DNA from: Chitinophagaceae bacterium
GTDB taxonomy: Bacteria; Bacteroidota; Bacteroidia; Chitinophagales; Chitinophagaceae
Assembly (NCBI GenBank): GCA_947454235.1
Contig: CANGIY010000007.1
Coordinates: 1 to 64,000 of the forward strand
DNA length: 64,000 nt
Direction of reading: 5' to 3'
Shown here: piece by piece, positions 14,261-18,531 of the stretch
Layout: each line of letters opens with the position of its first letter
Position numbering within the stretch: position 1 is the first letter of the stretch
The notes under the pieces: model-generated
Told to the model about the DNA's origin: nothing
The model's database searches: none
The model's input: the letters and a program-made list of their open reading frames with translations, nothing else
Made by a program: the position numbers and the translations under genes

Positions 14261-14265
14261 TAAAC

Positions 14266-14297: not shown

Positions 14298-14764
14298 AAA
14301 AAGTGGCTGTTTTTGAGGGAGAATTTACAGAATTACAGAATTTACAGGATGGGGGTTTAGTGGGGAAAATCTGGCGCGAGTTGGAGGTTGGTGTATTAGT
14401 TAAATCTGGCGCGGGGAGTTAGCGAAGCGCTCTCGTATCTATGTAAATGAGCGGGACTCTGTCCCGAACTCGACTATATTAATTAACCACTACAATTGTT
14501 TACCGCTAGAATTTTCTACGGAAAAGCGGTGATAGGATCTATCTTGTGTGTATTAAATGTATGCAATTCTGCTTCTGACTTCCGCAGTGTATGAATGGAC
14601 GCTACGTACAATATAGGATGAAGCTCGCCAGTTTTTTTGTAACTTTATCCGAGTGTTTTGAGGAGTTTTGGTATTTATTGTAATTTATTATTGTTTTTTT
14701 TGAATTTAAAAAGTAAATAATTTACAATGAAGACTTTTGAATGGGGAGTTTCTTGAAAAAATAA
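14298..14764. other. Repeat-rich intergenic region before the nuclease/helicase operon
   Basis: It contains short tandem GAATTTACAGAATTACAG-type repeats (about 14320-14350), two copies of AATCTGGCGCG, and the repeat at 14411-14489. The last 120 bp are AT-rich, with TTTG near 14699 and a weak TAATTTAC -7-like string at 14718-14725. A 9-codon ORF (14727-14756) precedes the operon and could be incidental. Confidence 0.4.
14411..14489 (+). repeat. Dispersed repeat, copy 1 (left of nuclease/helicase operon)
   Basis: It starts GCGGGGAGTTAGCGAAGCGC and ends with the 24-bp string GAACTCGACTATATTAATTAACCA (14466-14489). The 5' half recurs at 41040 and the 3' 24 bp at 18508-18531 with two mismatches. 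Confidence 0.7.
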
Positions 14765-16627
14765 ATGGTGAATATGACTGAAAAGAAACTTTCAGAATTG
14801 CAAAAAGAATACAGATGCTTTTTTACTGAAAAGTTGAAACTTTTTGGTGTCAAATCTCCTGCTGAGTTAACTAAGTGCCAAAAAAGTGCATTTTTTACAG
14901 AAGTAAAAGATGATTGGGCGTCACTAAAACTAGTCAAAAAAAAGCCAATCGAAGTTGAAGAGGAAAGTGCTAAGTTTATTATTGAAGAACCTATTGAAAC
15001 ATATACTAAGGCACCTGCGGAAAGTGAAAAAGTTAAACTATTAAAAATATTAGAAGGAAAAAGTAAAGTTGAGATTGAATCGGCCAACAAAAATGTGGAT
15101 AAAAGTCGACTTCTGACAATTGTTTCATCTGATATTGAAAAAGAAATTTCGCAAACTGATTTTAAAATTCAAGTCGTCAATTCTGAAATAAATCCAGAAC
15201 AAACAGATGACTTACGAATATTATTCAAACCAAATTGTCATTTTGCACAGCCAGAAAATTACATGTATCCTGTCGTTAAAATGCCAACGCAAAACTGTGC
15301 TTTGAAGCTTCCCAGATTGGGACGTTCTAATCAAAAAGGATATAAAGAGAATGAATTTTTCAATGAAATTAAACTCCAAAATTTTGATATCGAACTTGCT
15401 AATAATGTTCATATGGTCATCCCTAACTACAACAAACCTTACGAGCCAGACATAGTATTGTTTGATAAAAAGCTGAATTTATATATAGATGTTGAAATTG
15501 ACGAACCGTATGATGGTTTTTACAGGTTTCCTACTCACAACTACAAAGCGGAAAATGACTTTAAGCAAGATAATATTCGTGATTTATTTTTTACTGAAAG
15601 TGGTTGGGTGGTAATTCGATTTACTGAAAAACAGGTACATAAACAACCAAATGAATGTATTAATTATATAAAAAATGTGATTAAATCTTTGCGTGGGGAG
15701 GAGTTCAATTTTCAAGCAGAATGTGAGTTTGAAAACCAATGGGATGAAAATCAAAGTATTCAATGGCAATTGAATAAATACAGGGAAAAGTACTTGGAAA
15801 TTCATTCATTTCATAAAAGAAGGACTTTTATGGAAGTTGTTGTCAATGAACAGGAACAAGAACTTATAGAGGAAAATATCCAACGGACTCAGTTTAAAGA
15901 AATTGGAGAACAATTCGATAAAGATCTTCATAAATACTTTCATCTTGGGGATAAAACTGGGAATGCTGAATATATATCTGTGACAACATTAGTTGAAAGG
16001 TTTTTTCAATTTGATATAATTAGATACATTCAAAGGGAAGCGGAAAGAACCAATAGAGATGAGGAGGAGCTATTTAGAGAATTTCAAGCAAATCGAGATG
16101 AAGCGGCAACTTTAGGGACTGAACTTCATAAACAGATCGAACAATATTACAAGAATGAACCTTATGAAGATAGTTTGAAAGAATTCAAGCATTTTCTGGA
16201 ATTTGAAAAAGAAAAAATTAAACCCAAAGATTTGATTTTTGCAGAGGCAGAAAAAAAAATTTATTTTGATGAATTCAATGTAGCGGGGACCGTAGATTGT
16301 CTTTTCAAGTATTCTGACGGGAAGTATGCAATGGTTGATTGGAAACGAAGTAAGAAGCTAATCATATATGGTACCAACAGACCCGATAAAAGAGGATTTC
16401 AAATTGATATAGAAGGATTAACGAGTTTGACTAATTGTAGCTATTATAGGTACTGTATTCAACAAAATATATATAAATATATTCTGGAAAAGCAATATGA
16501 TATTATAGTGTCTGATATGATTTTGGCGGTTCTGCATGAGAAATATTCAAGTTATCACACATTAAGATTGCCTGAAATGATTAAAGAGACTGAAATAATT
16601 CTTAGGTCTTTAAAACATAAAATATAA
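14765..16627 (+). CDS. Protein with two PD-(D/E)XK nuclease-like regions
   Basis: The 620-residue, Lys/Glu-rich protein has an unrecognised N-terminus (about 1-170). A first nuclease-like region (about 190-310) contains EPDIVLFD followed by LYIDVEIDEPYDG and RDLFFTESGWVVIRF, as in VSR/DUF559-type folds. A second region (about 440-620) shows GTELHKQIEQYY, then AGTVDCLF and AMVDWKRSKK, as in RecB/Cas4-like nucleases. Acidic and Lys residues of both are present, so both could be active. The stop overlaps the start of the helicase gene by 1 nt (TAATG). AT-rich composition and many AAA/ATT codons differ from neighbours, suggesting transfer. A role in anti-phage defence is inferred. Confidence 0.75.
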   Translation: MVNMTEKKLSELQKEYRCFFTEKLKLFGVKSPAELTKCQKSAFFTEVKDDWASLKLVKKKPIEVEEESAKFIIEEPIETYTKAPAESEKVKLLKILEGKSKVEIESANKNVDKSRLLTIVSSDIEKEISQTDFKIQVVNSEINPEQTDDLRILFKPNCHFAQPENYMYPVVKMPTQNCALKLPRLGRSNQKGYKENEFFNEIKLQNFDIELANNVHMVIPNYNKPYEPDIVLFDKKLNLYIDVEIDEPYDGFYRFPTHNYKAENDFKQDNIRDLFFTESGWVVIRFTEKQVHKQPNECINYIKNVIKSLRGEEFNFQAECEFENQWDENQSIQWQLNKYREKYLEIHSFHKRRTFMEVVVNEQEQELIEENIQRTQFKEIGEQFDKDLHKYFHLGDKTGNAEYISVTTLVERFFQFDIIRYIQREAERTNRDEEELFREFQANRDEAATLGTELHKQIEQYYKNEPYEDSLKEFKHFLEFEKEKIKPKDLIFAEAEKKIYFDEFNVAGTVDCLFKYSDGKYAMVDWKRSKKLIIYGTNRPDKRGFQIDIEGLTSLTNCSYYRYCIQQNIYKYILEKQYDIIVSDMILAVLHEKYSSYHTLRLPEMIKETEIILRSLKHKI

Positions 16628-18465
16628 TGGAAGTATTAAACGAGTTTAGACAAGCAATTCAGATTGAAAGCCAAGAAAATGCTAAGGATTATGCTAAAGT
16701 TATGGCCTTGCAACAGAATGAAAGAATAACAAAAGGCGTAACAATGGCAAACTTTTCATTGCAATTTGATTTTAGAGAATTGCCGTATAGTCAGTGGAAT
16801 GAACTAGTTGAATATCCGTTTTCATATATAGGTACTGTTAAAATAGTATGCGATGAGAATAGGTCAAAATTTAAGGAGGGTTCAAACGTAATACTTAGCA
16901 ATGACGTATACAGTTTCAAAATGGAAATTAAGGAGGATAGTATTGATAATTTCATCTTAGTTCCTCAAGATTTTCACAAATACGATTGTTATATTGACAT
17001 AGAGAGTTATTCAACCGCCAATTGGGAATTGAATGAGGATAAATCTGATGCAACAGAAAAGATGCTTACAAAAACTGCTGAGTTGCTGAGTTGTGATAAT
17101 AATAAATTGTCAAGAATCGAAAATTTTTTAAATGGAAGAAGCGTCAATTCATTTAAGTCCAATTCAATTCAAGTAGAATATCTGAATAATTCTCAAAATA
17201 CTGCTTTAGAGAAGGCAGTTAATTCAAGCGACTTTTGCATTATTCAAGGACCGCCAGGAACAGGAAAAACTGAAACCATTGCAAACATCGCACAAATATT
17301 ACTGGGGCAGGGAAAAAAAGTTTTTGTAACTGCACCAACTCACACTGCGATAAACAATTGCCTGAATGCTATTTCTAAAAGGCTAGAAGACAAAAAAAAG
17401 GTGATTAAAATTGGAAGCAAACCTCAAAATAAAGAGATCTTAAATAACCAGCATATAACAATTAAGTCTAGTTTGACTTATCCCACTTACCAAAATAGTC
17501 CAGAACTACATCAAAATGGAATTGTAATTGGTGCGACGCCCTATTCAGTTTGTTATGATGCAACCAAAAAATTGAGATTTTGGGAGTTTGATGTTTGCAT
17601 AGTTGATGAGGCTTCTCAATTATCGATTCCATTGTCTCTTGCTGCAATGTCAAGGTCCGCTAAATATATTTTTGTAGGTGACCATAAACAATTGGATCCA
17701 ATTGTTCCGAAAAGTACAACATTGGAAATGTTTTCTGAGTCAATTTTTAGTAGGCTAGCAAGATTCTATCCACGTGAGATTAATTTGTTGAATATTTCTT
17801 ACAGGCTTAACGAGTTTTTAATAAAATTACCAAACACCTTGTTTTATGATAACAAATTGGAATCCAGCAAGAAAACACAAGTAGACACAAGGAATTATGA
17901 CTGCCAATTTCATTCTAATGTATTAAACAATGAGCCACATATACTATTATTACACGATGAGTTTGATGGAGTAAGTGATTCGAAATTTGAAGCTGAAATT
18001 GTGACAAATCTTATTTCTGATTTAGCTAAAAATGGGGCTAAATTAAGTGAGATAGGTATTGTAACTCCATATAGAGCTCAAGTCAGAACTATCAGGAGGG
18101 CGTTAAAAAATAGATTTCCCAAATTAACCATAGAACATTTTAATTCGTTGTTTATTGACACAGTAGATAGTATTCAAGGACAACAAAGAAATTACATTAT
18201 TTACAGTATGGCTAACTCTCATCCTTTAGAGTCGAAACAACGATTGGACTTTTTTTATAGCCCCAATAGATTGAATGTAGCAATCACGCGAGCGATTAAG
18301 AAGTGTTTTGTGATAGCGAACTACAAAGTCTTTGATATCAAAGACGAAGAATTATCGGGTCATTCAGAATACCAAATCATAAAGGGAAGCCTAGATATTT
18401 TTAAAAATTATTTTTCTCAATCAAAGAAAATTGAAATATTCCAGCAAGGTGAAGACGAATGGTAG
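16627..18465 (+). CDS. SF1 helicase, UPF1/DNA2-like, coupled to the nuclease gene
   Basis: The 612-residue protein has an N-terminal region (about 1-190) without a clear domain, then a full SF1 motor: Walker A GPPGTGKTET, APTHTAINN (Ia), IVDEASQ (II), VGDHKQLDP (III), SYRLN (IV), VDSIQGQQRN (V) and NVAITRAIKKC (VI). These are motifs of the UPF1-like SF1B group, which unwind RNA or DNA 5' to 3'. Translation is coupled to the nuclease by the 1-nt overlap, so the two probably work as a complex or pathway. A dispersed repeat lies 19 nt past the stop. Confidence 0.9.
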   Translation: MEVLNEFRQAIQIESQENAKDYAKVMALQQNERITKGVTMANFSLQFDFRELPYSQWNELVEYPFSYIGTVKIVCDENRSKFKEGSNVILSNDVYSFKMEIKEDSIDNFILVPQDFHKYDCYIDIESYSTANWELNEDKSDATEKMLTKTAELLSCDNNKLSRIENFLNGRSVNSFKSNSIQVEYLNNSQNTALEKAVNSSDFCIIQGPPGTGKTETIANIAQILLGQGKKVFVTAPTHTAINNCLNAISKRLEDKKKVIKIGSKPQNKEILNNQHITIKSSLTYPTYQNSPELHQNGIVIGATPYSVCYDATKKLRFWEFDVCIVDEASQLSIPLSLAAMSRSAKYIFVGDHKQLDPIVPKSTTLEMFSESIFSRLARFYPREINLLNISYRLNEFLIKLPNTLFYDNKLESSKKTQVDTRNYDCQFHSNVLNNEPHILLLHDEFDGVSDSKFEAEIVTNLISDLAKNGAKLSEIGIVTPYRAQVRTIRRALKNRFPKLTIEHFNSLFIDTVDSIQGQQRNYIIYSMANSHPLESKQRLDFFYSPNRLNVAITRAIKKCFVIANYKVFDIKDEELSGHSEYQIIKGSLDIFKNYFSQSKKIEIFQQGEDEW

Positions 18466-18483: not shown

Positions 18484-18531
18484 TTGCCTCGGGAGGAATC
18501 CCGAACCGAACTCGACCATATTAAGTAACCA
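18484..18531 (+). repeat. Dispersed repeat, copy 2 (right of nuclease/helicase operon)
   Basis: It carries GAACTCGACCATATTAAGTAACCA at 18508-18531, 22 of 24 bases identical to 14466-14489 in the same orientation, preceded by a CTCGGGAGGAATCCCGA hairpin. Confidence 0.7.

Follow-up and report, generated by a model that had tools for sequence, protein, structure and literature searches.

Two overlapping genes in a Chitinophagaceae contig

The DNA analyzed here is a 64,000-nucleotide stretch from a Chitinophagaceae bacterium (contig CANGIY010000007.1 of assembly GCA_947454235.1, positions 1 to 64,000), hereafter the window. It contains two adjacent open reading frames, ORF1 and ORF2, which a sequence-only reading had singled out as a coupled nuclease and superfamily 1 (SF1) helicase operon and as a candidate new defense system. 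The two genes are as follows.

14765..16627, forward strand: gene 1 (ORF1), double-nuclease protein of 620 amino acids; likely true start at 14774
16627..18465, forward strand: gene 2 (ORF2), SF1B helicase of the UPF1/IGHMBP2/Dna2 type, 612 amino acids

Both genes lie on the same strand and have one nucleotide in common, as first described, with the stop codon TAA of ORF1 at 16625-16627 and the start codon ATG of ORF2 at 16627-16629. An in-frame ATG at 14774, three codons downstream of 14765, is used as the start by most close relatives of ORF1 and is therefore the likelier start. The next large genes on either side of the operon are on the opposite strand. Comparison with other genes of the window agrees with the claim that the operon is AT-rich and deviant in codon usage: the G+C contents at third codon positions (GC3) of the pair, 0.254 and 0.290, are the lowest and third lowest among 47 window genes of at least 150 amino acids (pair included), and the pair ranks first and fourth in codon divergence among 15 window genes of at least 1,200 nucleotides.

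ORF1 carries two predicted nuclease domains

The predicted structure of ORF1 (predicted local distance difference test [pLDDT] score of 86.6) consists of a small helical module, a low-confidence linker, and a body that is well folded and holds two predicted nuclease domains, referred to as N2 and N3.

14786..14938, forward strand: N-terminal helical module of gene 1, of the YRxFF...GVxSPAxL type (approximately residues 8 to 58, from the model)
15257..15694, forward strand: probable nuclease domain N2, Vsr/DUF559-like (approximately residues 165 to 310)
15902..16615, forward strand: nuclease domain N3, MGME1/RecB-like exonuclease (approximately residues 380 to 617)

N3 is a PD-(D/E)XK exonuclease of the RecB/MGME1 type by both motif and fold. 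Enzymes of this type share the pattern H...D...(D/E)xK...QxxxY, and in an alignment of 50 sequences, H455, D511, D525, Q566, and Y570 of N3 are invariant, while K527 is conserved in at least 90%. N3 also matches the exonuclease family phrog_298 (2.3e-22, across residues 373 to 593). A Foldseek search with the nuclease model returned human MGME1 as the best match (3.0e-7), followed by AdnAB, AddAB, and Exo5 (about 5e-4) and by Cas4 and Dna2 (about 2e-3 to 3e-3).

N2, judging from its sequence, is probably a DUF559/Vsr-like nuclease domain. D229, E244-x-D246, H258, and R272 are invariant in the 50 sequences. The DUF559 match of ORF1 (E = 0.001) scores 19.4 bits against a Pfam cutoff of 20.6, and a match to MTES_1575 is below threshold as well; the relative at locus L099 exceeds the DUF559 cutoff with 21.3 bits. 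A profile search of solved structures gave a weak match to the endonuclease-like entry 3hrl (E = 0.054), and none of the matches seen in the Foldseek search of the ORF1 model could be assigned to N2. Taken together, the near-threshold DUF559 match and the phrog_298 match support the earlier claim of a PD-(D/E)XK-like nuclease in gene 1. No model of PADLOC 2023 or NCBIfam 2026 matches ORF1 at an E value of 0.1 or lower.

The long N-terminus, which had been described as unknown, can now be divided in part. It comprises the helical module, which matches phrog_28651 at 3.1e-4, and a linker of mostly low model confidence that extends to approximately residue 130; in relatives, other modules stand in its place. 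By visual inspection, the helical module is present at 20 of the 30 loci that encode both proteins (see below). Stretches resembling it also occur in 20 phage records at an E value of 0.1 or lower, including large-phage proteins of Erwinia, Dickeya, and Pseudomonas phages and, at an E value of 3e-2, a feature named DNA ligase 1 in Tenacibaculum phage pT24.

ORF2 is a complete SF1B helicase

ORF2 matches AAA_11 and AAA_12 as well as TIGR00376 (3.3e-65, yet with 220.8 bits, below the cutoff of 348.9), and it contains the motifs GPPGTGKT, DEAS, GDHKQ, QGQ, and AITRA. Its model (pLDDT of 85.1) has IGHMBP2, Dna2 (rank 2), and UPF1 as best Foldseek matches across most of its length, with template modeling scores of 0.60 to 0.71 for the best of them. 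The root mean square deviations are mostly 6 to 8 Å (6 to 7 Å for the three best), and so the domain angles of the model differ from those of its matches. Its motifs and overall fold mark ORF2 as a complete SF1B helicase of the UPF1/IGHMBP2/Dna2 type, in line with the UPF1-like SF1 helicase of the sequence-only reading. The N-terminal region, considered unknown in that reading, probably corresponds to the 1B/stalk region common to UPF1-like helicases, as evidenced by the fold match along most of the protein.

The nuclease and the helicase form a conserved unit

A six-sequence alignment used as a query retrieved 4 relatives of the nuclease in viral contigs and 318 in genome contigs, the best 80 of the latter representing 78 loci. 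These loci were combined with loci from whole-genome searches, and four repeat fetches (L085, L058, L059, and L060, equivalent to L037, L072, L082, and L101, respectively) were each counted once with their counterparts. At 30 distinct loci, the helicase gene lies directly behind the nuclease gene, with a gap of -1 to 20 nucleotides. An initial scan of genome contigs with the single protein had given 15 pattern matches, none of which was confirmed.

Pairing of the two genes is not due to chance. On a 79-row nuclease tree (constructed without the VWA fusion L037, L147, and L148, and never including L038, L039, L131, and L144), the presence of the helicase changes 2 times, compared to a mean of 23.8 when shuffled, and none of 500 shuffles was as low. 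The helicase accompanies the nuclease in 29 rows, which fall into two groups (25 and 4 rows) that include no helicase-less row, and a single origin of the helicase association is also compatible with this tree. Nuclease and helicase distances are correlated (r = 0.974 for 27 loci and 0.917 within 20 close loci), and none of 2,000 permutations was as high in either case. In a side observation, a transposase-like ORF splits the nuclease gene at L077 (8590-11485), where the helicase gene stays open.

The distribution of the pair is that of an accessory element that likely spread horizontally, because Bacteroidota families are intermixed in the nuclease tree and because the pair is found also in a metagenome-assembled genome (MAG) of Chlorobiaceae (L085, outside the tree) and in a MAG labeled Azovibrio (L076), a label that may reflect a binning error. 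Culturable hosts of the pair include Pedobacter hiemivivus and an Algoriphagus strain. Counting the genome of the window each time, the nuclease query matches 13 of 395 genomes of the phylum (many of them across one domain only) and 11 of 295 of the class. The helicase profile at an E value of 1e-60 or lower matches 4 of the 395 phylum genomes, with the nuclease directly upstream in 3 of the 4. At 1e-20 or lower, 25 of 195 genomes of the family have a helicase match; the 24 other than our own show 25 to 34% identity, and none covers the first 186 residues, i.e., they are paralogues. Searches of phages and plasmids with ORF1 found part-length relatives only. Such relatives occur in 39 plasmid records; judging from genus names, at least 29 of these records are from cyanobacteria, and 24 of the 39 are typed as conjugative. 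In all, 19 of the 20 rows shown cover the N2 region alone.

This distribution bears on the idea that the pair is a host enzyme for DNA repair or end resection, in effect a bacterial split Dna2 with no role in defense. The likeness in fold and motifs to Dna2, AddAB, and MGME1 is what such an enzyme would have. Nevertheless, we consider this explanation improbable, since the helicase orthologue is rare and patchy, the gene tree mixes bacterial families, and the operon is AT-rich and repeat flanked in the window. Also, a full nuclease relative is present in none of 10 other genomes of the genus, several of them incomplete: 9 lack any match, and the match in the remaining one is a fragment of the middle domain, N2. 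Conservation at one locus across the genus, which would have spoken against the sequence-only reading, was therefore not found, and neither was a match to a housekeeping repair pair; as a rare and accessory pair, it was rejected as housekeeping.

The genomic site offers limited further detail. In 6 of 7 genus genomes for which the NMO gene was retrieved with a flank, an M16-type peptidase gene, recognized by eye, is the next ORF of at least 80 amino acids on that side, and the seventh (L185) has one 139-amino-acid ORF between the NMO and peptidase genes; a clean empty site for the pair could not be defined from synteny in these 7 genomes. The OmpA-type gene on the other flank has only paralogue-like matches in other genomes of the genus (best, 33%). 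Copies of a repeat lie on both sides of the operon:

14464..14489, forward strand: left copy of a dispersed genomic repeat
18506..18531, forward strand: right copy of the same dispersed repeat, in the same orientation

This repeat has 8 copies in the genome at up to 3 mismatches (a reversed-pattern control gave 0). As a dispersed intergenic repeat, it was rejected as a mark of transposition, and it may be just a site where recombination occurred. There is also an exact 16-nucleotide direct repeat at 14262 and 14282. The description of both flanks as repeat rich is thus correct only in part: the clear repeat is a single dispersed family found on either side, and most of the other matches listed are short, two-copy, and imperfect.

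Relatives exchange the N-terminal part

Ten relatives were scanned for N-terminal families. The fusion at L085 (the same locus as L037; 5844-8450) has a VWA domain (6.4e-16) between signal-like and membrane segments, ahead of the nuclease, and its sequence suggests an external sensor and a nuclease on the inner side of the membrane, a topology predicted from hydropathy alone. At L087 (9623-11461; 2.4e-16) and L089 (9634-11442; 1.3e-13), the double nuclease begins with a fused HU domain, and its gene is followed by that of the helicase. L129 has WG repeats (2.4e-24), L122 has a subthreshold SH3 match, and no N-terminal family was found for L126, L095, and L088. By hydropathy, membrane-like N-terminal segments occur in many lone nucleases, in Hymenobacter pairs, in L040, and in the pairs of L086 and L088. 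The nuclease core is therefore constant, and the N-terminal aiming part is exchanged between relatives.

Comparison with known nuclease-helicase systems

As to chemistry, the pair is comparable to eukaryotic Dna2, and as to gene layout, to CoCoNuT and Hachiman. Dna2 likewise combines a UPF1-branch SF1B helicase, second in the fold search with ORF2, with a RecB-type nuclease, matched by ORF1 at an E value of 2.8e-3. The window pair differs in that two ORFs encode what Dna2 holds in one chain, in that it has a probable extra Vsr-like nuclease, and in that its RecB-like domain is nearer to MGME1. An iron-sulfur cluster is a Dna2 trait, whereas N3 has no invariant cysteine in the 50 sequences and thus no sign of such a cluster.

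CoCoNuT systems couple a UPF1-like helicase (CnuH) to a nuclease (CnuE), which in type III-B is Vsr-like and fused to the helicase (PMC11090510). The window operon has no third gene and hence no McrB/McrC (CnuB/CnuC), which were looked for at the other pair loci by eye among the genes listed. The nuclease gene is upstream of the helicase gene here and downstream in CoCoNuT. Further differences are the RecB-like nuclease domain of ORF1 and the ORF2 model, in which Walker A is not followed by a long helical insertion; DSSP assigns short elements only to residues 214 to 326.

The likeness to CoCoNuT raises the possibility of an RNA-targeting system, in which, as predicted for CoCoNuTs, the UPF1-like helicase would unwind RNA and a nuclease domain would cut a stalled or foreign transcript. 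UPF1 and IGHMBP2 are among the top fold matches of ORF2, and type III-B offers a precedent for the combination of domains. This explanation is highly improbable, however, given that N3 belongs to a group of DNA exonucleases (MGME1, AddAB, and Cas4) and that the nucleases of L087 and L089 carry fused HU domains, which bind DNA.

Hachiman (HamAB) is a two-gene nuclease-helicase defense complex (PMC12278908). ORF1 matches no PADLOC family at an E value of 0.1 or lower, and no Ham model stands among the 25 families listed, of 27, for ORF2. Also, ORF2 is an SF1 helicase, while HamB is an SF2 helicase. With Mokosh, ORF2 shares the helicase region of MkoA (PDLC03920, 4.7e-59), and a full-length MkoA match neighbors the pair at L067; however, the best stretch spans profile positions 790 to 1082 of 1112, and the N-terminal part of MkoA has no counterpart in ORF2. 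As for Gabija, GajB matches ORF2 only at 3.8e-6 over 66 residues, and ORF1 has no match to GajA. Membership in Hachiman, Gabija, Mokosh, or CoCoNuT was thus rejected on the gene, profile, and model features tested, in keeping with the earlier statement that the combination does not match a named system. A literature search found no description of this nuclease-helicase pair; it covered open-licence PMC papers only and is hence no proof of absence.

Some pair loci lie within type I restriction-modification operons

Recognized defense genes occur within about 6 genes of the pair at 11 of the 30 loci: type I restriction-modification (RM) genes at 7, DRT (RT_UG19) at 2, Mokosh MkoA at 1, and AbiEii at 1. 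The PADLOC assignments were HsdR and a DpdF/PsyrT-like helicase (L079), TmtA (L081), DRT (L072), MkoA (L067), and AbiEii (L085); like genes of other loci were recognized by BLAST, either to these genes or to visually identified HsdM and HsdS genes. HsdM and HsdS are found at L070, L079 to L083, and L096, in each case ahead of the pair. At L079, L080, L081, L083, and L096, HsdS is on one side of the pair and HsdR on the other, with further genes intervening, while at L070 and L082 HsdM-HsdS is just upstream, near a contig end.

Compared with 50 loci of lone nucleases (L147 and L148 set aside), pair loci more often have HsdS (7 of 30 versus 0 of 50; P = 0.0006) and HsdR (5 of 30 versus 0 of 50; P = 0.006) nearby, in tests that ignore relatedness. 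Among 129 proteins encoded near the pair, at least 11 match the type I methyltransferase model PDLC03038 and at least 6 match a specificity model in PADLOC. In a far control (145 of 146 proteins; neither set includes proteins shorter than 110 amino acids or genes at a distance of exactly 5 places), at least 4 match PDLC03038, and this set includes HsdM of the same RM operons.

Further genes accompany the pair at some of these loci. At L079 (13636-17969) and L080 (13640-17967), a gene for a 1,217- to 1,218-amino-acid protein, DpdF/PsyrT-like by PADLOC in L079, and one for a 223- to 226-amino-acid protein are nested with the pair in the type I restriction operon. TmtA is encoded just before the pair at L081 and L096. 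In G254 (L189, 9315-11063), the fourth phylum genome matched by the helicase profile, the helicase relative has no such nuclease upstream, and the gene directly downstream is HsdR-like by visual inspection.

A DNA-degrading module, probably defensive

We propose that the pair is probably a two-gene DNA-degrading module, likely spread horizontally, that acts mainly in defense against invading DNA. It is best read as resembling a split Dna2 with a mostly defensive role, its activity being predicted from sequences and models. The interpretation offered at the outset is borne out in part. In its favor are the conserved and probably horizontally transferred unit, the lack of a model match for ORF1, and the 11 of 30 loci near defense genes; the window copy itself has no clear defense neighbor.

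Several observations weigh against this proposal. Homologues do occur beside known defense genes, as the sequence-only reading asked to be checked, but 19 of the 30 pair loci, that of the window included, have none of the defense genes sought, and the BLAST queries were limited to families already found at these loci. One seven-row clade accounts for six of the seven loci embedded in RM operons, so that the pair has been embedded about two times independently, with the G254 helicase as a further case. The two loci with DRT are closely related to each other, and HsdM separates pair loci from lone loci only weakly (7 of 30 versus 3 of 50; P = 0.035, relatedness again ignored). Among the 50 other window proteins of at least 110 amino acids, one has a PADLOC match at an E value of 1e-10 or lower, a weak one to ZorB (MotB type, 3.5e-11); the matching protein is probably one of two OmpA-family proteins. 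A defense island around the window copy was accordingly rejected, and the surroundings are mostly metabolic genes, among 25 of 98 Pfam families listed. As to the proteins, the identification of N2 is weak, DUF559 being below threshold, and an aspartate occupies the usual lysine position of this domain; UPF1-like helicases work on RNA also, and so we infer the DNA substrate. Finally, in Prevotellaceae, the branch of lone nucleases suggests vertical inheritance and a steady host function rather than a defense island. By visual inspection, the neighbors of these lone nucleases (L135 and L137 to L143) include FabF-like (7 loci) and ACP-like (6 loci) genes.

Other contexts among these adverse points fit a module by which phages and other mobile elements would process their own DNA in recombination or replication, with the chromosomal copies as remnants. 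On the phage contig L145 (7375-11567), the pair lies 47 nucleotides behind a YqaJ recombinase gene (9.3e-28), and this YqaJ-nuclease-helicase row is divergent from a capsid gene on the other strand (Phage_cap_E, 6.5e-9). L087 has genes for DUF3127, weakly like a single-stranded-DNA-binding protein, and DnaB_C nearby, and both the C-terminal domain of the nuclease, which is like phage exonucleases, and its N-terminal module have counterparts in phage proteins. On the other hand, just 1 of the 30 pair loci is on a viral contig (phage families were searched for in the neighbors of few loci), and the pair lies between HsdS and HsdR at 5 loci, where recombination modules are not expected. We therefore regard this explanation as unlikely.

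Under the defensive proposal, the two proteins would form one complex. The helicase would load onto foreign DNA at a nick, a gap, an end, or a replication intermediate and unwind it, and N3 would shred the single strand that becomes exposed, as happens within the single polypeptide of Dna2, while the Vsr-like N2 might make the entry cut or provide recognition. For the relatives nested in type I restriction operons, the ends made by HsdR would be a natural entry point; this nesting therefore suggests action after HsdR cleavage. The N-terminal module, helical in the window and an HU domain, membrane anchor, or VWA domain in relatives, may place or target the nuclease.

A broader possibility, which we raise tentatively, is that these proteins belong to an undescribed, widespread Bacteroidota platform with one conserved double-nuclease core, Vsr-like and MGME1-like, and swappable N-terminal aiming parts (helical module, HU, membrane anchor, VWA flanked by signal-like and membrane segments, and WG repeats). 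One or two branches might then have acquired a Dna2-like helicase and, as a split Dna2, destroy DNA that type I restriction has opened or that is otherwise foreign, and membrane-bound branches might cut at the envelope.

If the defensive proposal is correct, an uncharacterized two-gene nuclease-helicase system would be added to bacterial immunity, with a parallel in eukaryotic Dna2. It would also provide a direct link to type I restriction, i.e., to the fate of phage DNA after HsdR cuts. Moreover, the swapped N-termini, membrane-anchored forms included, would offer a testable case for nucleases that are aimed at the site of DNA entry.

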